Positions 2,925 through 13,316 are shown, numbered from the stretch's first letter. The stretch is 13,487 nt of DNA from a bacterium (GCA_030619985.1 JAUXAI010000033.1:1-13487); one strand, 5' to 3'. Notes: a model not told the origin generated them from the letters alone. Made by a program: numbers and translations.

Positions 2925-3674
2925 ATGTCGGGACATTCCAAGTGGGCAGGAATAAAGCATAAGAAGGCCATCGTCGATGCTAAGAGAGGAAAGATATTTT
3001 CAAAGCTGATTAGAGAGATTACGGTTGCTGCGCGCACTGGAGGAGATCCATCTGCTAACGCTCGTTTGAGGCAGGCCATAGAGCGAGCGAAAGAGGCTAA
3101 CATGCCCTCAGATAATATCAAAAGGGCTATCCAGAGGGGAACGGGTGAACTGCCGGGGGTAAGCTATGAAGAGGTTATCTATGAGGGTTATGGTCCGGGT
3201 GGGGTGGCCATCCTGTTAAACATCCTAACGGATAATAAGAATAGGACTACCTCTGAAGTGAGGCATCTCTTTGAGAGAAATGGGGGGCACTTAGGAGGGG
3301 CGGGGAGTGTAGCTTGGGTATTTAAAAAGAAGGGGTTCATTACTGTGGATAGTGATAAGTGTAGTGAGGATACCTTAATGGAGATGGCTTTAGAAGCTGG
3401 GGCAGAGGATTTGAAGAGAGAAGGAGATACCTTCGAAATCATTACCTCCCTAAGCGATTTCGAAAAGGTGAAAAAAGCCATTAAGGAGAAGGGGATTGAA
3501 TATAATTTAGCAGAAGTAACCATGATCCCTAAAAATGTAAAGAAACTCGATGCCCAGGTAGGGAAGCAGCTTCTGCGTCTCATCGATGCCGTAGAGGAGC
3601 ACGATGATGTTCAGCACGTCTATGCCAATTTCGATATTCCGGATGAAGTAATAGAGGAGATGGAGAAGGAGTAA
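2925..3674 (+). CDS. yebC: YebC/PmpR/TACO1 family protein
   Basis: A full-length (249-residue) YebC homologue. The N-terminus [20 protein letters not shown] is the family signature, followed by [19 protein letters not shown], and then the central [20 protein letters not shown] and the [19 protein letters not shown] segment. The acidic C-terminus with [12 protein letters not shown] is also typical. The family is cytosolic. It was first annotated as a transcriptional regulator, and more recent work links it and mitochondrial TACO1 to translation of difficult sequences such as polyproline runs. The start is fixed by the family N-terminus and AAAGGGG six bases upstream of the ATG. It sits directly before ruvC, an arrangement seen in many bacteria, and probably shares a transcript with it. 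Confidence 0.97.
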
Positions 3675-3682
3675 AGAATCAA

Positions 3683-3717
3683 TGCAAAATGTAAAATTAA
3701 CAGTGCAAAATTTAAGA
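3683..3717 (+). repeat. Period-7 tandem repeat between yebC and ruvC
   Basis: Five heptamers in unbroken register start at 3683, 3690, 3697, 3704 and 3711. The unit TGCAAAA is exact at 3683 and 3704, and TGTAAAA occurs at 3690; the units at 3697 and 3711 are diverged. It fills most of the 63-nt gap before ruvC. Confidence 0.6.
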
Positions 3718-3737
3718 AAAAGATTGGAAAGGGAAAT

Positions 3738-4226
3738 ATGATTATTCTGGGGATCGATCCGGGGACGGCAGCCATGGGTTATGGCATAATCGAGACCAAG
3801 AAGAGGAAGAATAAGGTCCTGGGTTATGGCTGTATCAAGACCACTCCTAAGACCCTCTTTCCCCAAAGACTAAAAATGATCTATCAGGAATTAGGAAAGA
3901 TTATTCGAGAATATTCTCCAGATGTCGTTGCCATGGAACAACTTTTCTTTGCTCGCAATGCGCGAACCGCCATCTCTGTTGGCCAGGCGCAGGGGATGGT
4001 CTTTCTTGCCGCAGCAGACGCAGACTTAGATGTGGTAAAATATCCACCCTTACAAATAAAGATGACCCTTACTGGGAAGGGAAGGGCAGAGAAGAGTAAA
4101 GTGCAGAAAAAGATTAAGAGGTTATTGAGGCTGAAGAAGATCCCCCGACCAGTAGATGCTTCAGATGCCTTGGCAGTTGCCCTCTGCCATATTCTTTTAA
4201 AGAGAAAATTAAAGAGTAAAGAGTAA
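3738..4226 (+). CDS. ruvC: Crossover junction endodeoxyribonuclease RuvC
   Basis: This is the 162-residue Holliday-junction resolvase, which nicks the two opposing strands of a four-way junction during recombinational repair. All four catalytic acids of the RNase H-like fold are present: Asp7 in GIDPGTAAMGYG, Glu67 in VVAMEQLFFARN, and Asp140 and Asp143 in PVDASDALAVALCH. The KGRAEKSKVQ segment at 114-123 is also typical. The start is supported by GGAAAGGG at 3726-3733. The usual partners ruvA and ruvB, which encode the branch-migration motor, do not follow here; a dehydratase activase-like gene begins only 4 nt after the stop. The last codons and stop lie in a duplicated AAAGAGT heptamer, suggesting the 3' end was altered by repeat growth. 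Confidence 0.96.
   Translation: MIILGIDPGTAAMGYGIIETKKRKNKVLGYGCIKTTPKTLFPQRLKMIYQELGKIIREYSPDVVAMEQLFFARNARTAISVGQAQGMVFLAAADADLDVVKYPPLQIKMTLTGKGRAEKSKVQKKIKRLLRLKKIPRPVDASDALAVALCHILLKRKLKSKE
4211..4224 (+). repeat. Heptamer duplication at the ruvC stop codon
   Basis: AAAGAGT is directly duplicated at 4211-4217 and 4218-4224 and continues as an A-rich run to 4230. It encodes the last residues of RuvC and supplies the T of its stop codon. It also occupies the region where the ribosome binding site of the next gene should be, leaving only a weak purine stretch. Confidence 0.55.
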
Positions 4227-4230
4227 AAAG

Positions 4231-7200
4231 ATGGCAAAGTATATCGGCATAGACCTGGGAGCACTCAGTATTAACACTATTCTCTACGATAGTAAGAATC
4301 AGGGTATAGAAGAACTCCCTTATTTACTTCATCAGAGAGAACCTCTTCCCAGGGCGATCATAAATCTTAAGAAGATTCTAAAAGATGAGAAAGGGATTGA
4401 AGGCATTGGAGTAACCGGCTCTGGTGGAGAACTCTTGGCGAGTCTAATCAATGCCCACTTTGTGAACCCCATCATTGCTCAGGCCGAGGCCAATATTAGA
4501 CTCTACCCCCACCTCAGGACCATCTTCACTATCGGTGGTCAATCCTCGGGTCTCATCTTTCTTGATCACGATTCCAACCCAGATCAAACCGTTATGTCCG
4601 ACTCGGTAACCTCTGGCCAGTGTGCTGCAGGCACCGGTTCCTTTCTGGACCAGGCAGCATCGAGACTAAAATATTCCATAGAAGAGTTTAGTGACCTGGC
4701 CCTCAAATCGAAGACCCCGGAGAACATTTCCGGAACCTGTTCTGTCTTCGCAAACTCCGCCATGATAAATAGCCAGCAGAATGGGGCGAAGGATGTGGAT
4801 ATTATAGCTGGCCTATGTTATGGCTTAGCAAGGAACCTGATCGGGACCCTAAGCAGAGGCAAGAGACTCTCCAAGCCCATATCCTTGCAGGGTGGGGTGG
4901 CGGCCAATAGAGGGATGATAAAGGCCTTTGAGGATATCCTGGGATTGCTCAAAGAGAATGAGACTCTCTTCATCCCCCCCTATTTTAGATCAATGGATGC
5001 CATCGGGGCCGCCATGATCGCCGCTCGCCAGAAGCAAGGAAGAGATTTTAACTTAAAGGTTATCAATAGAAAGTTGAGAAGTCTGAATCAGGAAAGGAAA
5101 GAGAATCTGCTCAAACCGCTAAGCTTGACGGATGATATAAATATCCTGGAAGGAGATCTCTATCCTTCGACAAAGGATGAGAGATGGGATGTCTTTTTGG
5201 GGATCGATGTTGGCTCAATAAGTACCAACATCGCGGTCTTAAACTTTGCTAAGGGTGAATGGAAACTTTTAACCAAGAGATATCTCCCCACAGAATCGAG
5301 GCCATTAAAGGTCGTTACCCAGGCACTATTGGATGTAGAGCAAGAGATGGGTGAGAGAATAAATGTTCTGGATGTCTGTGTCACTGGTTCGGGAAGAGGC
5401 CTGGTTGCTGATTATCTTGGGGGAGTGAGAACCAGGAATGAGATAACGGCCCATAAGACCGGCTCGTTGAGCGTGGCAGAGCGTCTGGAAATAGGGGTCG
5501 ATGAGATATTCGAAATCGGTGGTCAGGATTCGAAGTACATAATCTTAGAGGATGGGGTGGTAGTAGACTTTGCCATGAATACCGCCTGTGCCGCAGGAAC
5601 CGGTTCCTTCATAGAGGAGCAGGCAAAACTACTTGGCATAAGGGTTGAGGACTTTGCCCACCAGGCATTTAAGAGCCAGAGACCATTCTCTTTTGGTAGT
5701 TGCAAATGTACCGTATTCATGGAACAGGAGGTCATCTCTCGACAGAACACCCATAGAAAGAATGACCTGGTGGCCAGCCTCTGTCATGCCATTGCCCACA
5801 ACTACTTAAATGAATTCAAGATTGGGGATAAGAGAGGAAAGAATATCTTCCTCCAGGGAGGGGTGGCCCTGAACAGAGCCGTGGTGGTTGCTCTCCAGTA
5901 TCTGACCAAGGCCAAGATCACGGTACCTCCTCACTGCGAGGTTCTGGGGGCCATCGGGGCGGCTATCTTGGCAAAGAAAATGTATCAGGGAAAGACAAAC
6001 TTCGTGGGCTTCAAGAGATTGAAAGGAAGAACCTACTCCTTGAAGTCTTTTGAGTGTAAGGGATGTGCCAATGTATGTACTGTCAAGATGGTTGAGATAG
6101 AGGAAGAGGAGGGGATCACCTACTACTATGGCGACCGGTGTCAAAAATACCAGAAAAGTGCCGGTCAGCTATCAATTGAGAATAACCTTCCTAACCTATT
6201 TCGGGAAAGGGAGAGACTGCTCACCCGGCCTCACGAGACTAAGACAAAGAGAAATGGAATAAAGATCGGCATACCAAGACTCTTCTCAGTATACTATGAC
6301 CTCTTTCCTCTCTGGCAGGCTTTTTTTACAGAGTTAGGATACCGGGTGATTACCTCAGAGATAACGAATAAGAAGCTTCTGGCCAAGGGCTCTGATGGCG
6401 TCCTATCTGATACCTGTCTTCCCTTAGAAATGCTAACCGGTCACATAAGGAATCTATTGGAAAAGGATGTCGATTATATCTTCCTGCCCAGCGTGATCGA
6501 GATGCCCAACAGGAGAGAGGATAGAAAGACCTATCTCTGCCCCCTTGTCCAGGCCTCCCCCTATATGGCAAGAGTAACCACAGAGCTGGGCAAGAAGTTG
6601 CTCACCGTCCCCATCCATTTCCATAAGAAGAGGTATAACCTGGAAAGGGCAATGATGGAGATTGGGAGAACCCTGGGCCAGAACCCAAAGAGTGTAAAGA
6701 GGGCATTGAGCAAGGGCCTGGCATCCTTCACCCATTTCAATAAGGAGATAAAGAAGAGGGGAAGAGAAATATTAGAGAATATTGAGAATTATTCTCTTCC
6801 TGTGGTCGTCGTGAGCAGATCCTACACCATCGGTGATCCAGGAATAAATGTTGATCTACCGAGGATGCTTCTGGATTTGGATGCTCTACCGATTCCCCTC
6901 GATTTCTTACCCTTGGAGGAGCAAGACCTTGGGACTTATCAGGGTAAGATTAACTGGAGCTATGGTCAGAGGATCCTGCGGGCTGCGGAACTGATAAGGA
7001 AGACTCCGCGATTGAACGCCGTCTATTTCTCTATATTCGCCTGCGGCCCAGACTCCTTTCTCACCACATTCTTCAAAAATAGGATGGGGGGGAAGCCATT
7101 TCTAAACCTTGAGGTGGGAAAGACAACTGCTCAGGCCCATCTGCGCACAAGATGTGAGGCATTCCTGGACAGTGTCAGAGAAAGGGTAGAAAAGATTCAC

Positions 7201-8439
7201 CAGCTAAGTTTTAAAAGTAAAGAGGTTTCTTCTTCCCCTAAACCAGGGAAGAGAAAATTGCTCATCCCCTATATGGACGAGGATGCCCATATCCTGGTTG
7301 AGGCCCTGAAATTCATAGGGGTTGAAGCCGAACTCTTGCCCCGATCATCAGACGCCACATTAACCCTGGCCAACAGATTCATATCAGATAAGACCTGCCT
7401 GCCCACCAGGGAGACCGCCGGGGATTTCTTAGGTTATGTGCTCCGGCACCCTTGCCATCCAGATAAGATTGCCTTCTTTAACATGCAGGCGGATGGTTCC
7501 TGTAGACAGAAGTGCTATTACTTATTGCAGGAACAGACCTTGAAAGAATTGGGTTTTGAGGTTCCCATAATAACCCCTGAGCCAGGCACCATCAATTATT
7601 GGAAGGGGTTTGAACTGGTAAATGGGAGGATAAAGATCAGCAAGATAAGGGGGTTTAGATTTCTTACCAGATTCTGGAAAGGCCTGGTGGCCATGGAGGT
7701 TATTAGACAATATGTCAGGGAGAGGCGGCCCTATGAATTAGTTCCCGGCAGCATTGATAGAGCATTTAAAGAGAATATGAATCTGATACTGGAAGGGATG
7801 CGGGAAGGCAATATGGCCTCCAGAACCTATAAACTCTTCCAGTTGATAGAAAAGGTTCCTATCGGCAGAAAAGAAGAGAAGGTTAATATCGGGGTTGTGG
7901 GGGAGGCCTATGTCAGAGTCCACGAGCATAGCAATGAATACATGGTTAAAAGAATAGAATCCCTGGGCGGTATAGTCATCCTGCCCATGACTGGTTCCTT
8001 TCTGAACTATGCCTTTGAGGTCATAGCAAAGAGACACCCTATTTTGAAACCCCTAAAATACCTCCAGGAATTCCTGGAACATCAGGTCACTAAGAAGATC
8101 CGTCACCATCTGATCTTCCCGGAGCCGAAGGCTAAAGAAATGTTAGCCGCAGCCTCCCATTACCTTCACCTTTCAGCAGATAGTGAGGCCCTGGAGGGAA
8201 CCGGTCTGGCGCGACTCTATATCGCATCCAGAAAGATTTACGGGATACTCTCCCCCGTCCCCTCCTACTGTATGCCGGGAGGAATACTCCAATACATGCT
8301 GGAGAAGATGCACCGAGAATTTAAGATACCGGTGCTCACCTTAAGAATGGATGGAGTTCATGATCCAAATACCAGGACAAATCTCGAAATCTTTATGCAT
8401 AAAGCAAAGCGCTACAAGATGCATTTAGAGAAGAAGTAA
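4231..8439 (+). CDS. Giant acyl-CoA dehydratase activase-like protein (two BadF/HgdC ATPase domains, DUF2229 and HgdB-like regions)
   Basis: A 1402-residue protein of the BadF/BadG/BcrA/HgdC group. The first ASKHA ATPase domain (about 3-266) has GIDLGALSIN, the cluster cysteines Cys131 (CAAGTG) and Cys170 (GTCSVF), and LQGGVAANRG. The second (about 321-581) has GIDVGSISTN, EIGGQDSK, Cys453 (CAAGTG), Cys491/Cys493 (CKCTVF) and LQGGVALNR. A cysteine motif follows (Cys609, 612, 616, 637), then a DUF2229-type region (about 676-900) and HgdB-like parts to the C-terminus with Cys938, 975, 1056, 1091, 1095 and 1347. In HgdC, a homodimer holds one [4Fe-4S] cluster and uses ATP to push low-potential electrons into a dehydratase; here two such domains could do this within one chain. 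Large fused members of this length are known in anaerobes, mostly without assigned function. No separate dehydratase genes are visible. The substrate is unknown. The start codon follows a weak ribosome binding site, consistent with coupling to ruvC. Confidence 0.92.
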   Translation: MAKYIGIDLGALSINTILYDSKNQGIEELPYLLHQREPLPRAIINLKKILKDEKGIEGIGVTGSGGELLASLINAHFVNPIIAQAEANIRLYPHLRTIFTIGGQSSGLIFLDHDSNPDQTVMSDSVTSGQCAAGTGSFLDQAASRLKYSIEEFSDLALKSKTPENISGTCSVFANSAMINSQQNGAKDVDIIAGLCYGLARNLIGTLSRGKRLSKPISLQGGVAANRGMIKAFEDILGLLKENETLFIPPYFRSMDAIGAAMIAARQKQGRDFNLKVINRKLRSLNQERKENLLKPLSLTDDINILEGDLYPSTKDERWDVFLGIDVGSISTNIAVLNFAKGEWKLLTKRYLPTESRPLKVVTQALLDVEQEMGERINVLDVCVTGSGRGLVADYLGGVRTRNEITAHKTGSLSVAERLEIGVDEIFEIGGQDSKYIILEDGVVVDFAMNTACAAGTGSFIEEQAKLLGIRVEDFAHQAFKSQRPFSFGSCKCTVFMEQEVISRQNTHRKNDLVASLCHAIAHNYLNEFKIGDKRGKNIFLQGGVALNRAVVVALQYLTKAKITVPPHCEVLGAIGAAILAKKMYQGKTNFVGFKRLKGRTYSLKSFECKGCANVCTVKMVEIEEEEGITYYYGDRCQKYQKSAGQLSIENNLPNLFRERERLLTRPHETKTKRNGIKIGIPRLFSVYYDLFPLWQAFFTELGYRVITSEITNKKLLAKGSDGVLSDTCLPLEMLTGHIRNLLEKDVDYIFLPSVIEMPNRREDRKTYLCPLVQASPYMARVTTELGKKLLTVPIHFHKKRYNLERAMMEIGRTLGQNPKSVKRALSKGLASFTHFNKEIKKRGREILENIENYSLPVVVVSRSYTIGDPGINVDLPRMLLDLDALPIPLDFLPLEEQDLGTYQGKINWSYGQRILRAAELIRKTPRLNAVYFSIFACGPDSFLTTFFKNRMGGKPFLNLEVGKTTAQAHLRTRCEAFLDSVRERVEKIHQLSFKSKEVSSSPKPGKRKLLIPYMDEDAHILVEALKFIGVEAELLPRSSDATLTLANRFISDKTCLPTRETAGDFLGYVLRHPCHPDKIAFFNMQADGSCRQKCYYLLQEQTLKELGFEVPIITPEPGTINYWKGFELVNGRIKISKIRGFRFLTRFWKGLVAMEVIRQYVRERRPYELVPGSIDRAFKENMNLILEGMREGNMASRTYKLFQLIEKVPIGRKEEKVNIGVVGEAYVRVHEHSNEYMVKRIESLGGIVILPMTGSFLNYAFEVIAKRHPILKPLKYLQEFLEHQVTKKIRHHLIFPEPKAKEMLAAASHYLHLSADSEALEGTGLARLYIASRKIYGILSPVPSYCMPGGILQYMLEKMHREFKIPVLTLRMDGVHDPNTRTNLEIFMHKAKRYKMHLEKK

Positions 8440-8444
8440 ATCAG

Positions 8445-8491
8445 TCCGTCTGCCCATCAGTAGTATAGACGGATTCGACGGACAAGACGGA
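8445..8491. repeat. Period-9 repeat with inverted arm between the activase and spoIID genes
   Basis: GACGGA occurs three times at exact 9-nt spacing (8468, 8477, 8486). Its complement TCCGTCT at 8445-8451 pairs with AGACGGA at 8467-8473, a 7-bp stem with a 15-nt loop. No T-run follows, so it does not look like an intrinsic terminator. A small ACGCA/TGCGT hairpin (8495-8509) lies just downstream. Confidence 0.6.
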
Positions 8492-8530
8492 GAAACGCAT
8501 ATCTTGCGTGATGAACAAAGGATGTCGCGA

Positions 8531-9658
8531 ATGAAAAAAACCCTGCTACTATTTTTAATGATAGCGTGTTTTATTTTAACGGGTTTTAGAGATAGTTCCG
8601 ATCCTAAGATTCGGGTGGCTATTCTTCTGGACGCTTCATCTGTGAAAATATCTGCTACGGGAAGATTTAAAATCTTTGCTCCCGGAAAGTTGGAAGCAGT
8701 GGCTACTGGCGATGAGAGTTCTATTTATATGATTCAATCTGGTCTCTTTGGTCTAAAGATGGATGGGCCAGAGGAGTATGGAAATATCTTGGAGGTTAAG
8801 CCCTTAGGGGATTCTTTTATAAGAGTAAATAACCGGACCTATCGAGGAGAGATAGAGGTCAGGAAGAGGAATGACACCTTATTGGTCATCAATGAGGTGG
8901 ACTTGGAGGAGTATCTCTATGGAGTGATGAAGCATGAAATTTCGCCTGCCTGGCCCCTAGAAGCAGTAAAGGCTCAGGCTGTGGCTGCCAGAAGTTTCGC
9001 TTTAAATAAAAAATTGGGGAACGTCGGTAAACCCTACGACTTATGTGCTACTATTACCTCTCAGGTATATGGTGGCCTATCGGGTGAGGATCCCAGATCT
9101 AACGAGGCCATTGATGAGACGAGAGGAGAGATACTTACCTATGAGGAGAGACCAATAGCTGCCTACTATCACGCTACCTGTGGGGGAGAGACAGAGGACG
9201 TGGAGAATGTCTGGGGTGGGAGGTTACCCTATCTAAAGAGTGTAAGATGCAGATATTGTAAAGATTCTCCTCACTATGAATGGGAGGAGAAGTTGAGCCT
9301 CTTAGAGATTAGCAACGCCTTGGGTCATAAAGGGATTAGTGAGGTCGAGTCTATAGAGATCTATGAGAGAAGTGACACAGGAAGGATAGTGAAACTGGTT
9401 GTGGAAGACGAATTCGGCAAGCACATCATCTCTGGGAACCAGTTCCGGATGGCCCTTGGACCCAATCTAATTAGGAGTACTCTTTTTAAGATAAAGGAAA
9501 AGAGGGGTAGGGTGGAGTTTAAAGGAAAGGGCTGGGGGCATGGAGTAGGGATGTGTCAGTGGGGAACAAAAGGAATGGCAGAGAGAGACTTCTCTTATAA
9601 AGAGATTTTAAAGCATTACTATTCCAATGCTGAAATAAGGAAAATGGATAATAGATAA
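8531..9658 (+). CDS. SpoIID/LytB-domain peptidoglycan-modifying protein
   Basis: I chose the ATG at 8531 (375 residues) over the TTG at 8504. It gives a clean export signal beginning MKKTLLLFLMIACFILTGF, and AAAGG at 8517-8521 lies nine bases upstream; the TTG falls inside a small hairpin. The SpoIID domain is clear: LEEYLYGVMKHEISPAW, with a glutamate in the position expected for catalysis (about residue 136), then EAVKAQAVAARSFALNK, and near the end GKGWGHGVGMCQWGTKGMAE and the YKEILKHYY segment. Family members cleave glycan strands stripped of stem peptides; they are essential in sporulation but also common in non-sporulating bacteria, often as amidase enhancers. Cysteines at about 172, 217 (HATCGG), 240 and 243 (RCRYC) may bind zinc, as reported for a clostridial SpoIID. 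It is predicted to act outside the cytoplasmic membrane. Its presence alone does not show that the organism sporulates. Confidence 0.92.
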   Translation: MKKTLLLFLMIACFILTGFRDSSDPKIRVAILLDASSVKISATGRFKIFAPGKLEAVATGDESSIYMIQSGLFGLKMDGPEEYGNILEVKPLGDSFIRVNNRTYRGEIEVRKRNDTLLVINEVDLEEYLYGVMKHEISPAWPLEAVKAQAVAARSFALNKKLGNVGKPYDLCATITSQVYGGLSGEDPRSNEAIDETRGEILTYEERPIAAYYHATCGGETEDVENVWGGRLPYLKSVRCRYCKDSPHYEWEEKLSLLEISNALGHKGISEVESIEIYERSDTGRIVKLVVEDEFGKHIISGNQFRMALGPNLIRSTLFKIKEKRGRVEFKGKGWGHGVGMCQWGTKGMAERDFSYKEILKHYYSNAEIRKMDNR

Positions 9659-9698
9659 TGAATTACGAATGGCGGGCAGGTGTAAAAAATCTGTAACG

Positions 9699-9744
9699 AT
9701 TCGCGTTAATTCGCGTTTTAAAATTAAATTCGCGATTATTCGCG
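9699..9744. repeat. Four phased ATTCGCG repeats upstream of yajC
   Basis: ATTCGCG occurs at 9699, 9709, 9728 and 9738. The start-to-start spacings are 10, 19 and 10 nt, close to whole turns of the DNA helix. The array ends four bases before the yajC ribosome binding site. It may be a spacer microrepeat like the others in this window, or a binding-site array; the sequence does not decide. Confidence 0.65.
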
Positions 9745-9747
9745 TCT

Positions 9748-9756
9748 AAGGAGGTG
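9748..9756 (+). promoter_or_regulatory. Full-length Shine-Dalgarno sequence of yajC
   Basis: AAGGAGGTG is a perfect complement to the conserved 3' tail of bacterial 16S rRNA and lies four bases before the ATG at 9761. It is the strongest ribosome binding site in the window and fixes the yajC start. Confidence 0.9.
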
Positions 9757-9760
9757 TGGA

Positions 9761-10075
9761 ATGAATCAAGTATATGCCATGGCGCCCAGATCAGAGGGGG
9801 CGGCCCCTGGTGGAATGGGAGGTTTAGGACCTTTCGTTCCCATAATCTTAATCTTCATCATCTTCTACTTCCTCCTCATCCGACCCCAGCAGATAAAGCA
9901 GAAGAAGCACAGAGAGATGCTTCAGAATCTGGAAAGGGGAGATGAGGTAGTGACCAATGGTGGGATCCATGGGACCATTGTGAGGATCAAAGAGGATGTC
10001 GTCACCTTAAAGGTGGCGGAGAAGATGGAGATTCAAGTCTCCAAGAGCGCCATTGCCTACCGCAAAAAGAAATAA
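9761..10075 (+). CDS. yajC: Preprotein translocase accessory subunit YajC
   Basis: A small (104-residue) single-span membrane protein of the Sec holo-translocon. A short N-terminal stretch rich in Gly and Ala is followed by a hydrophobic helix at about residues 24-40 (FVPIILIFIIFYFLLIRP), ending in the family-typical IRPQQIKQKKHREM, and then the cytosolic domain with the signature LERGDEVVTNGGIHGTIVRI. Length and motif order match the family. YajC associates with SecDF, encoded two genes downstream, so the genes probably act together although an HD-domain gene lies between them. Confidence 0.96.
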   Translation: MNQVYAMAPRSEGAAPGGMGGLGPFVPIILIFIIFYFLLIRPQQIKQKKHREMLQNLERGDEVVTNGGIHGTIVRIKEDVVTLKVAEKMEIQVSKSAIAYRKKK

Positions 10076-10090
10076 CGTAAACTCGTAAAA

Positions 10091-10175
10091 TTCGGAGTTC
10101 AGAGTTAGGAGTTCGGAGAAAAAATACACCGAACTCAAGCGATCCCGCCGAGGGCGGGAGAGCGTACTCCGAACT
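10091..10175. repeat. Period-7 tandem repeat and alternative hairpins between yajC and the HD gene
   Basis: Four heptamers start at 10091, 10098, 10105 and 10112; TTCGGAG is exact in the first and last and one or two bases different in the middle two. The last unit can pair in two ways: GAGTTCGG 10109-10116 with CCGAACTC 10129-10136, or AGTTCGGAG 10110-10118 with CTCCGAACT 10167-10175. A separate 6-bp GC stem, CCCGCC 10144-10149 with GGCGGG 10153-10158, lies inside. No T-run follows any of them, so none reads as an intrinsic terminator. Confidence 0.7.
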
Positions 10176-10200
10176 AAAACCATCTAAAGAGAGGTTAGTA

Positions 10201-10866
10201 ATGGCTAAGGTTACTTTGAATGATGTGGTAAAGAATGAGAAGGTGAAGGCCTATCTGGAAGGAGCGAATAGACAATTAGAGGCCATAGGTTATACAGAGC
10301 ATGGCCATCGCCACGCTGACCTGACAGCAAAGATCGCCCGTAATATCCTCCTTCGTTTGGGATATAACAAAGATGAGGCAGAGCTGGCTGCCATTGCCGG
10401 GTACTTACACGATATCGGCAATGTGGCAGGAAGGACGAACCATGGCCAAGCAGCAGCCATCTTAGCCTCCCGTATCCTGGGAGAGATGGGGATGGAGGAT
10501 AAGGATATCGCAATCATCATGGGAGCGGTGGGGAATCATGAGGAAGAAATTGGAGAACCCCCTTCCCCTCAGGCAGCAGCCTTAGTCATCGCAGATAAAT
10601 CGGATGTCCATAGGTCACGGGTGCGAAATCCCAATATAGCCACCTTTGATATTCATGACAGGGTGAATTATGCTGCAGAGCACTCCTTCGTTAGGGTGGA
10701 CAAAAAGAGGAAGACCATCACCCTCGAACTGACCATCGATACCAAGATCTCCCAGGTTATGGAATACTTTGAGATCTTCTTATCCCGAATGATGATCTGC
10801 AGAAGGGCCGCCAAGGTCTTAAAGTGTGACTTCAAATTGGTAATAAATGGAATAAAGCTACTATAA
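10201..10866 (+). CDS. HD-domain metal-dependent phosphohydrolase
   Basis: A 221-residue soluble protein with the HD-superfamily metal site: His38 in GHRHAD, the His70-Asp71 pair in GYLHDIGN, His81 in TNHGQAAAIL, His113 in GNHEE, and Asp132/Asp135 in ADKSDVHR. HD proteins hydrolyse phosphate esters of nucleotides or related substrates; the substrate here cannot be read from sequence. The ATG follows AGAGAGG with a six-base spacing. Placement between yajC and secDF recalls the arrangement in some Clostridia, which suggests a conserved association with the Sec accessory operon without showing a shared function. The C-terminal third has no motif I recognise. Confidence 0.88.
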   Translation: MAKVTLNDVVKNEKVKAYLEGANRQLEAIGYTEHGHRHADLTAKIARNILLRLGYNKDEAELAAIAGYLHDIGNVAGRTNHGQAAAILASRILGEMGMEDKDIAIIMGAVGNHEEEIGEPPSPQAAALVIADKSDVHRSRVRNPNIATFDIHDRVNYAAEHSFVRVDKKRKTITLELTIDTKISQVMEYFEIFLSRMMICRRAAKVLKCDFKLVINGIKLL

Positions 10867-10878
10867 AAGGAATAAAGA

Positions 10879-13122
10879 ATGGATAAAAATAGACTCATCA
10901 AATTATTGGCCATTATTCTGATCATCGGTCTGGCCTTCTGGCAACTCTATCCCAGTCTTAAGTATTATAGATTAAGTCCAGAAGAGAGGGAATTAGAGAA
11001 GGAATTAAGGGATAGAGCTATCCATCTGGGCCTGGACCTCCAGGGAGGGATGCATCTTGTCCTAGAGGTGGATACCAAAGATATGGCGGCCAGGGAGGCC
11101 AATTCAGCTGTAGAAGGAGCTCTGATCGTTATCAGAAGGCGGATTGAGGATAAATTCCCTTTACTAGAACCTAAGATCCAGAGGCAGGGGAAGAACAGAA
11201 TCATCATTCAACTTCCTGGGATAAGGGATCCGGAGAGGGCAAAAGAACTCATTGGGAAGACAGCCCTCTTAGAGTTCAAAATAGTTAAGGATCGGGCAGA
11301 CAGTAAAGAAAGACTCTTGGAAAAACTCTCTAATGAGATACCCTTGGGATGCTATATTCCAGAGAGCAAGGAAGAGGAAGTCTTCTTAGTAGAGAAAGAA
11401 CCAGTATTAACAGGTGAAGAATTATCCACTGCTGCTCCAAAGATTTACGAGGCGCGACCCGAGGTCTCTTTAAAATTTACCAGAAAGGGGGCAGGAATAT
11501 TCAAGGAGGTGACCGGGAAGCATGTAGGAGAACAATTGGCCATCATCCTTGATGATGTAGTCTATTCCGCCCCAGTAATCAGGGAGAAAATAACGGGCGG
11601 GGAGGCCCGCATTACCGGCCGTTTCACCATGGATGAGGCAAAGGATTTGGCTAATGTGCTTCGTCACGGTGCCCTTCCCGCAGCAGTAAATAAGATTGAA
11701 GAGCGGACGGTTGGTCCTTCCCTGGGTCTGGACTCTATAAATAAAGGAGTAAGGGCAGCTATTCTGGGCCTGGCTTTAATTGCCCTCTTCATGCTTCTTT
11801 ATTATCGTTTCTCAGGTCTCATTGCTAACTTCGCTCTTTTCCTAACCCTCCTTCTTCTCCTGGCGACCTTAACTGGCTTTGGCCTTACTTTAACTCTTCC
11901 TGGAATTGCCGGTATCATATTGACCATCGGTATGGCGGTGGATGCCAATGTCCTAATCTTTGAGAGAATGAAAGAGGAACTAAGAAGTGGAAAGTCGATC
12001 AGGGCCTCCGTAGAAGGGGGCTACACCAAAGCCTTTTTGACCATTATGGATGCCAACGTTACCACATTAATCGCTGCCTTAGTTCTCTTTCAGTTCGGCA
12101 CCGGTCCAGTGAAAGGCTTTGCCGTTACTCTATCTATTGGAATATTGGCCAGCATGTTCTCTGCCCTTGTAGTCTCCCGGGCTATCTTTGAATTCTTAAC
12201 CAGCAGAAGGAGATTTAAGAGACTCTCCATGGCCAGCCTCATCGGTCCCACCAAAATAGACTTCATAAATAGGCGTAAGATTGCTTTTGCTTTTTCCATC
12301 CTTCTAATTGTTGTTGGACTGGTTTCTTTTGTGACCAAAGGAGAGGATAAATTATTGGGAATAAAGAAGAACTTTGGTATCGATTTCAGGGGAGGAAGTT
12401 TAGTCCAACTTAGGTTTGCCTCTCCCATTAGTGCAAATGAAGGAAGGAAAGCCTTAAGTGAGATCGGATTAGGAGCAAGCACCATCCAGCAGTTCGATAC
12501 TGGCAAAGGAATGATCATCAGAAGCACTAAGGATGCTGTTACTCCTATTGTAAGTAAGTTTTCCCAGGCCTTTAAATTAGAGGAGGTCCAGCGACGGGAG
12601 ATGGTAGGTCCAGAGGTGGGTAGGGACCTGAGAAAGGCAGCCTTCCTTGCTCTATTCTGGGCTTTAATCGGGATACTAATCTACATTGCCTGGAGGTTTG
12701 AGTTCAGATTTGCCATCGCTGCCGTAATTGCTTTATTCCATGATGTCTTGATTACCATTGGCGCTTTTTCTTTAACTGGGAGAGAATTTTCCCTTCCCAT
12801 CATCGCTGCTCTATTGACCATCGTTGGCTATTCATTGAATGATACTATCGTAGTCTTTGACAGAATACGCAGGAATGCCAAGATATTGAGAAAGGAACCC
12901 TATGAGATTATGGTTAACACCAGCATAAACGAGACCCTCTCTCGAACACTCCTTACTTCGCTAACCACCCTGGTCGTTGTTTTATGCCTCTTCTTCCTGG
13001 GAGGAGAGGTAATCCATGACTTCGCCTTCGCCCTTTTAGTGGGCATTACCGTAGGAACCTACTCCTCCATCTTTGTCGCCAGTCCCATCCTCGTTGCCTG
13101 GCAGAAGAGAGCAAGGAGATAA
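10879..13122 (+). CDS. secDF: Protein translocase SecDF (fused SecD and SecF)
   Basis: A 747-residue membrane protein in which SecD and SecF are one chain, as in Bacillus and Thermus. It uses the proton gradient to pull secreted proteins across the membrane after the SecA motor. SecD half: a first membrane helix at about 7-23, then LGLDLQGGMHLVLEVD (50-65), a large external domain, and a membrane block from about 290 containing GMAVDANVLIFER with Asp355. SecF half: FINRRKIAF at 462, GIDFRGGSLVQLRF (500-513), and a second membrane block with IVGYSLNDTIVVFDRIRRN carrying Asp655. Asp355 and Asp655 match the aspartates implicated in proton transport. Length agrees with known fused proteins (about 735-740). 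The start has AAAGG eight bases upstream and lies 12 nt after the HD gene stop, so the two are probably co-transcribed. Confidence 0.97.
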   Translation: MDKNRLIKLLAIILIIGLAFWQLYPSLKYYRLSPEERELEKELRDRAIHLGLDLQGGMHLVLEVDTKDMAAREANSAVEGALIVIRRRIEDKFPLLEPKIQRQGKNRIIIQLPGIRDPERAKELIGKTALLEFKIVKDRADSKERLLEKLSNEIPLGCYIPESKEEEVFLVEKEPVLTGEELSTAAPKIYEARPEVSLKFTRKGAGIFKEVTGKHVGEQLAIILDDVVYSAPVIREKITGGEARITGRFTMDEAKDLANVLRHGALPAAVNKIEERTVGPSLGLDSINKGVRAAILGLALIALFMLLYYRFSGLIANFALFLTLLLLLATLTGFGLTLTLPGIAGIILTIGMAVDANVLIFERMKEELRSGKSIRASVEGGYTKAFLTIMDANVTTLIAALVLFQFGTGPVKGFAVTLSIGILASMFSALVVSRAIFEFLTSRRRFKRLSMASLIGPTKIDFINRRKIAFAFSILLIVVGLVSFVTKGEDKLLGIKKNFGIDFRGGSLVQLRFASPISANEGRKALSEIGLGASTIQQFDTGKGMIIRSTKDAVTPIVSKFSQAFKLEEVQRREMVGPEVGRDLRKAAFLALFWALIGILIYIAWRFEFRFAIAAVIALFHDVLITIGAFSLTGREFSLPIIAALLTIVGYSLNDTIVVFDRIRRNAKILRKEPYEIMVNTSINETLSRTLLTSLTTLVVVLCLFFLGGEVIHDFAFALLVGITVGTYSSIFVASPILVAWQKRARR

Positions 13123-13128
13123 ATACAA

Positions 13129-13160
13129 AGGAGACCAGGAGATCGGGTCATCAGGTCATT
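13129..13160 (+). repeat. Period-8 tandem repeat after secDF
   Basis: Four octamers in register start at 13129, 13137, 13145 and 13153. The first two differ at two positions (AGGAGACC, AGGAGATC), as do the last two (GGGTCATC, AGGTCATT). It begins seven bases after the secDF stop. No intrinsic terminator is visible in this spacer. Confidence 0.6.
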
Positions 13161-13187
13161 AGATAAGCGAGAATTTCCTGATACCCT

Positions 13188-13207
13188 GTATTCTGAGCAT
13201 CGCGAAG
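13188..13207 (-). repeat. Possible dispersed element copy upstream of the ferredoxin-like gene
   Basis: Read on the minus strand this is CTTC-N8-CAG-N-ATAC, related to the copy at 352-371. A short inverted repeat, ATTCT 13190-13194 with AGAAT 13206-13210, overlaps it. The motif resembles a common environmental-genome intergenic repeat known to me by appearance only. Confidence 0.45.
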
Positions 13208-13265
13208 AATCTAGCCAACTTGTTAGGCGTCTATTCTGGTAATCTGATACTCTTCTTCTTTTTGC

Positions 13266-13293
13266 TGTAAACCCGTTGCTGTAAACTGTAAAC
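13266..13293 (+). repeat. Period-7 tandem repeat upstream of the ferredoxin-like gene
   Basis: TGTAAAC is exact at 13266, 13280 and 13287, with one diverged heptamer at 13273 keeping the register. It ends 23 bases before the ATG at 13317. Confidence 0.65.
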
Positions 13294-13316
13294 TAACCGT
13301 GCAAAGCGAGGTTTAG

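Follow-up and report, generated by a model that had tools for sequence, protein, structure and literature searches.

A bacterial contig of 13,487 nucleotides (GCA_030619985.1 JAUXAI010000033.1:1-13487; hereafter the window) raises the question why its gene gaps hold short tandem repeats of period 7–10 nt built from ever different units, and whether these reflect a mechanism rather than one spreading sequence, as a first-pass annotation of positions 3,683–13,293 had proposed. Bacterial repeats dominated by heptamers have long been noted, without an accepted mechanism. The window corresponds to contig 21 of a 1.25 Mb MAG (G000; 83.65% complete, 91 contigs). According to its open reading frames it carries the end of a 23S rRNA, 5S rRNA, an EF-G-like gene, yebC, ruvC, a gene for a BadF-like activase protein of 1402 aa, a SpoIID-like gene, yajC, an HD-domain gene and a fused secDF; an Rfam scan of the window returned rRNA alone and no other family. 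Judged by its nearest named GTDB relatives, UBA7526 (UBP18), KR13_S3.mb.88 and HyVt-354 (YebC identity 89–90%), the MAG probably belongs to candidate phylum UBP18. The phylum sample comprised six genomes (MAGs 53–93% complete), among them G003 from the same genus and G002 from another genus. With several hundred arrays in roughly 1.2 Mb and comparable sites in related species, the phylum offers a compact test bed.

Repeat arrays in the window

For each spacer of the window, the best lag-match segment at periods 7–10 was compared with 1000 dinucleotide shuffles. A period 7–10 array beat the shuffles at P ≤ 0.012 in five of eight regions, one of which includes the ruvC end; the fusA–yebC spacer gave P = 0.056 and the HD–secDF spacer held no array. 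All features below are read on the plus strand, apart from one inverted partner on the minus strand. The strict register ascribed to the seven repeats held at four of them (starting at 4211, 8468, 10091 and 13129), while those at 3683–3717, 9699–9744 and 13266–13293 proved to be interrupted.

The heptamer AAAGAGT, present in two to three copies (4208–4230; P = 0.003 for 4210–4230), lies at the 3′ end of the ruvC ORF (3738–4226) and spans its stop codon, so that the 4211–4224 array is a coding end and not a gap; it is retained in the congener G003. The 9-mer array GACGGATTC/GACGGACAA/GACGGAGAA occupies 8468–8494 (P = 0.005, or 0.012 with a wider spacer), and beside it the inverted word TCCGTC can be read at 8445–8450. 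Four copies of TTCGGAG, a unit found at other loci as well, form the array at 10091–10118 (17/21 lag matches; P = 0.003). This array opens a composite that extends to 10175, in which CGAACTC (10130–10136) and ACTCCGAACT (10166–10175) make up an inverted partner on the minus strand (10130–10175) and flank CCCGCCGAGGGCGGG, the partner being split by a GC hairpin, CCCGCC GAG GGCGGG, at about 10143–10159. The 8-mer array with the core GATCGGGTCATCAGGTCATTAG (13129–13162; P = 0.001) has an inverted CCTGAT nearby, at 13177–13182.

Among the interrupted repeats, the degenerate TGCAAAA heptamer array (3681–3717) sits in a 67-bp insert between yebC and ruvC (3671–3737). It scored 16 of 28 lag matches over 3683–3717, is broken by TTAACAG and, taken alone, reached P = 0.09 (3681–3697). 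The repeat at 9699–9744 (17/36 lag matches) resolved into two ATTCGCG-N3-ATTCGCG doublets of period 10 with other sequence between them: the first, at 9699–9717 (P = 0.003), belongs to a dispersed family, and the second, at 9728–9744 and with exact 10-bp word spacing, lies directly upstream of the Shine-Dalgarno-like AAGGAGG of yajC (9748–9754). Finally, the TGTAAAC heptamer array (13266–13294), a member of the ACNGTWW word family, gave 9 of 21 lag matches over 13266–13293 and is broken by CCCGTTGC.

Excess, periods and placement across the genome

The genome-wide survey covered 1.15 Mb of the window's MAG, including 168 kb of spacer, with a strict hit defined as 12 of 14 matches at lag p. Spacers held 468, 467, 92 and 59 hits per 100 kb at periods 7, 8, 9 and 10, respectively, against about 1–2 in shuffles. 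The comparison with shuffled spacers, which the first-pass annotation had named as its own check, thus came out in favour of an excess at periods 7–10, by about 40- to 700-fold. Periods 1–6 showed no excess over shuffles in spacers; period 11 was weakly raised (11 vs 0.6), there was little at 11–13, and multiples of 7–10 showed up as harmonics in the period spectrum. Long simple sequence repeats (LSSRs) have units of 5–11 nt and occur in scattered bacteria, with heptamers most abundant, for which a role of polymerase contact length has been suggested (Mrazek et al. 2007, as summarised in PMC4679880). As in LSSRs, tandem units in the range of 5–11 nt lie well above composition-matched expectation here, but the expected enrichment of 5-, 6- and 11-nt units was not found.

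Non-overlapping arrays numbered 384 (177, 140, 37 and 30 at periods 7, 8, 9 and 10), mostly with 2–4 copies (median 2.3–3, maximum 7.6). Strict arrays occurred in 22% of the 815 gene-flanked spacers, so that the statement that almost every gene gap carries one was too strong. G000 is unusually co-oriented, same-strand genes flanking 778 of these 815 spacers. Arrays are not restricted to gaps: 4211–4224 lies at the ruvC end, and some 83 arrays sit within predicted genes, a group that had escaped the first-pass annotation. Within spacers, array density drops in the last fifth, ahead of the start codon. Fold z-scores of array windows equalled those of other spacers, and a role as structured RNA or terminators was therefore rejected as a general function.

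Recurrent words and dispersed families

The units, of which a first count gave 211 canonical ones, come from a restricted vocabulary of dispersed words. The 177 arrays of period 7 have 80 units among them, which gives 292 identical pairs vs 29 when letters were shuffled within each unit; the corresponding values were 212 vs 8.7 at period 8, 8 vs 0.1 at period 9 and 14 vs 0 at period 10. At periods 7 and 8, identical units thus recur 10–24 times as often as expected by chance, and the units cannot be called unrelated: those of the window, including TGCAAAA, TGTAAAC, TTCGGAG and ATTCGCG, belong to multi-locus families. The proposal of a mechanism instead of one spreading sequence fared accordingly. 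Many units within one narrow period range indicate that something period-specific is at work, but recurrence so far above chance indicates that dispersed words spread or are favoured. Flanks were alike in 6% of same-unit pairs vs 0.2% of random pairs; being alike so rarely, they suggest that mostly the word is shared and not a longer element. Similarity of at least 50 bp to another spacer was detected in 396 of the 647 spacers of at least 60 bp.

The ATTCGCG-N3-ATTCGCG doublet occurs 48 times in G000 and was found in all six phylum genomes (reversed-pattern control, 0). Its 10-bp spacing was exact in 64 cases, with a free 3-nt linker, and 41 of 47 doublets were intergenic. The next doublet often follows 41–46 bp further on in G000. 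Outside the phylum, 75 doublets were counted in an Elusimicrobia MAG, where the distance is about 27 bp, and 12 in a Nitrospiria MAG. A third genome has a single doublet and 30 others have none, and the reversed pattern, used as a control, gave 0 in every one of these genomes. The heptamer word ACNGTWW is likewise common in all six phylum genomes. Its sharing over phyla was rejected: ACNGTWW in three copies stayed at background in 33 other genomes, with four one-strand sites vs five for the reversed control. An Omnitrophota MAG carries heptamer arrays of its own, CGTGAAT and AACAACG, between yebC and ruvC (L197:5485-5542), two genes that also border an array in the window.

Inverted pairs and nested hairpins

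The inverted arrangement seen at 10091–10175 recurs elsewhere. Neighbouring arrays of the same period were inverted copies within distance 2 in 12 of 29 cases, vs 3.3–3.5 expected. Pairs of inverted short words, as in REPINs, are thus enriched, yet most arrays stand alone. Furthermore, GC hairpins were bracketed by a shared word in 49 of 313 cases vs 20 in the shifted control. Hairpins of this kind inside arrays have variable stems and similar surroundings (GGGCACC...GGTCGG), in genes and spacers alike, as if arrays served as targets of insertion; they were noted at L043:19768 and its G003 match, in the KsgA gene of G003 (L231), at L111:3734 and at 10143–10159 of the window.

Arrays within genes

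Array loci that lie within predicted genes, at a distance of over 45 nt from both ends, numbered 83. By NCBIfam, ten of their hosts are enolase, KsgA, NadC, GMP, RnfC, DapF, IleS, RibE, IspG and ValS. Compared with PDB homologues, the arrays of the four enzymes that were checked correspond to insertions, of +5 aa in enolase, +16 in KsgA, +10 in ValS and +6 and +7 in NadC. Some coding arrays, especially those of period 9, may be chance or ordinary codon repeats.

Two of these sites could be followed across species. In four genomes the enolase loop preceding LPVPMMN holds an array of about four heptamers; its total length is equal in all of them, and the unit is TTAAGGG in G000, TTACCAA in G003, TTACGGG in G004 and TTTACGG in G005. 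In G002 the unit is TTACCGA, and an in-frame insert is nested in the array. Between G000 and G003 the array is 54% identical and its flanks 88%. In KsgA, five species from two genera share four copies of GGTTACCC followed by an inverted AACTGGC array, and the copies read CCGG throughout in G000, CCAG throughout in G003, G001 and G004, and are mixed in G002; at this site G005 carries a 7-mer array in place of the 8-mers. G000 retains the CCAG form at another locus, so the word change is per locus, and the mixed copies of G002 argue for change in place there. Such a reading need not apply everywhere: the contrast of TTGGACT vs ACGGTTA at L130:5603 may represent overwriting by another array. The KsgA array alleles (L227–L232) cross genus lines, G000 resembling G002 and G003 resembling G001; not following genus, they hint at recombination between species.

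Gain, persistence and copy number between species

The insert that carries the TGCAAAA array of the window has an empty counterpart. In G003 (L135), yebC and ruvC overlap and the 67 bp are absent. G002 shows the bracket of the window split by a nested insert, and the insert of G001 is unrelated. In G005 (L132), the gene that starts some 25 nt past the yebC match is not ruvC but a different one, and the spacer array is missing. A further array gain, at L062:4335, is clean and in frame (+21 nt).

A systematic comparison of G000 with G003, based on 563 kb of G003 with 119 of 330 array loci mapped, is one between species, at 83% nucleotide identity. Among about 99 well-mapped G000 arrays, 46 had a same-period array at the same place in G003 and six an array of another period; the remaining sites showed a weak array or none. 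At the 46 same-period sites the unit was identical in 23 and different in 23. Copy number was mostly stable: in 21 of 31 sites with units identical or one letter apart, the length did not differ, and copy number is thus not hypervariable at this identity. Where it did change, whole units could be gained or lost (16 bp at L100:442 and L118:16332, 7 bp at L045:8500, 10 bp at L060:3462). Frequent copy-number change between close relatives, as in contingency microsatellites, was not observed between these congeners. Identical repeats of fixed copy number in distant relatives had been named beforehand as evidence against a generating mechanism, and such constancy was in part encountered, in these 21 of 31 arrays and in KsgA across two genera; with fixed copy number between species at many arrays, their behaviour is not that of hypervariable slippage loci. 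At 15 G003 sites scored as array-free, the seed match was 0.83 for the unit vs 0.72 for a random unit, several of these sites holding a diverged array. In the clear gains at L111:7870 and L062:4335, the array-free site matched the unit no better than a random unit.

Possible origin of the arrays

Profile searches for candidate machinery in the six phylum genomes returned no match for MutS1. Reverse transcriptase (PF00078) and the Y1/RAYT transposase (PF01797) were found in none of these incomplete MAGs, 5 of 14 control genomes being positive for the transposase. Ku was likewise not found in the six, which is weak evidence, as only one control genome was positive. That a universally present gene was missed in all six incomplete MAGs is improbable. 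Although MutS1 was found in none of them, repeats of 1–6 nt are not in excess.

Standard repeat mechanisms do not fully explain same-site arrays with differing words. The reading that we prefer, and to which we would give an even chance, is that arrays are inserted at tolerated sites, persist there and are homogenised in place or overwritten, so that words change while site and period stay. A large population of short arrays, made of words at a period of 7–10 bp, often paired in inverted orientation and at times interrupted by GC hairpins, would gain members by insertion, and these would survive where tolerated, namely in spacers and protein loops. They would persist for long with mostly stable copy number, the unit changing across copies together, and sister species would come to have different words at the same site and period. 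The change might proceed by local duplication or conversion within the array, some property of the replication or repair polymerase might favour the length of 7–10 nt, and recurrent words could reflect ectopic copying or sequence preference. One point counts against homogenisation: such a process should alter copy number too, and little change of this kind was seen. Same-site word differences may also arise by overwriting with another array or by independent insertion at a permissive site. A more specific process, in which period-counting synthesis or repair first writes 7–10-nt arrays, at permissive sites or at breaks, and then changes the word in all copies at constant copy number, seems rather improbable to us. 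If true, rewriting would act even inside essential enzymes, species would differ by word and not by site, and a period-counting process would be active in several phyla, that of the window and sporadically Omnitrophota, Elusimicrobia and Nitrospiria.

Under ordinary replication slippage the arrays would be long-unit microsatellites that began as chance duplications, and the contact length of the polymerase would favour 7 nt. The heptamer preference known from bacterial long simple repeats (PMC4679880, PMC4692102) and the whole-unit indels fit this idea, which we nevertheless consider unlikely given the recurrence of identical words at periods 7 and 8, the mostly stable copy number between congeners and the two clear gains without a seed match above that of a random unit. 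Moreover, without MutS1 slippage should favour short units, and their lack of enrichment speaks against plain slippage. Dispersed miniature elements (REPIN-, MITE- or SDR-like), with the arrays as ends or arms moved by a transposase, would account for the inverted pairs around loops or GC hairpins, the long similarities between spacers, the empty sites and the inserts nested inside arrays. Against this origin, which appears quite unlikely, the missing Y1/RAYT and reverse transcriptase argue with respect to REPIN/RAYT and retroelements; most same-unit loci have no common flank, and more than 200 units at several periods differ from one or few element families. The arrays could also be functional sites, that is, iterated binding sites of a protein or RNA regulator under selection. 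The strongest case is the ATTCGCG doublet, with about one helical turn between its words: the word is conserved while the linker is free, the spacing is exactly 10 bp, doublets recur at 41–46 bp, most copies are intergenic, and it extends from the six phylum genomes to the Elusimicrobia and Nitrospiria MAGs. Selection on such sites leaves the 7- and 8-mers with changing units and the arrays inside enzymes unexplained, predicted folding near arrays is no stronger than in other spacers, and as a general explanation it is very improbable. Insertion followed by change in place or overwriting remains our preferred reading. If it is confirmed, a repeat process at the DNA level would be rewriting loops of core proteins. 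Arrays in enzymes are of particular use, as the reading frame records length, and a period and site that stay stable while the word changes narrow the possible generating processes.

Comparison with known repeat systems

The small dispersed repeats of cyanobacteria are, in the work of Elhai et al. of 2008, reportedly tiny elements inserted within tandem heptamer arrays. By description, they can be likened to the GC hairpins that lie nested in the present arrays. Rickettsia palindromic elements are in-frame repeat inserts in housekeeping genes. The arrays share this in-frame insertion into protein-coding genes, but, again compared by description, they differ in being tandem 7–8-bp words in loops whose unit varies by species. 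REPIN/REP sequences resemble the present arrays in their inverted short words, imperfect hairpins and dispersal in spacers; they comprise few conserved REPs, in contrast to the many words, the tandem iteration within each arm and the lack of a detected Y1/RAYT gene here (PMC3116915).

The closest likeness is to LSSR and heptameric repeats, as far as these are summarised in PMC4679880 and PMC4692102: heptamers dominate, most arrays lie in spacers, tens to hundreds of loci are involved, and inverted arrangements occur. GGGAATC in Xanthomonas and GGGGA(T/C)T in Nostoc are examples, and the sequence varies at the same intergenic places in relatives (PMC4692102), as the intergenic position is kept with varying sequence among related species here. 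Unlike the LSSRs described in those summaries, a genome of 1.25 Mb here combines more than 200 units at periods 7–10 with no other long-repeat periods, many arrays lie in genes, including core enzymes, and units at the same site differ between species. The TAACTGA repeats of marine Beggiatoaceae (2–6 copies, gene-adjacent) are heptamers of few copies next to genes and sporadic over distant phyla, like those studied here, but there a single heptamer is favoured and mostly lies immediately before start codons, whereas the present arrays use many words and avoid the last fifth of the spacer (PMC4679880). A literature search, outside of which most subscription papers lay, yielded no account of unit differences at fixed sites and none of repeat arrays with concerted change inside genes. 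Four features are new compared with these systems: arrays are dense although the genome is very small, their units are diverse within a narrow range of periods, arrays occur in core enzymes, and units differ at sites that stay fixed.
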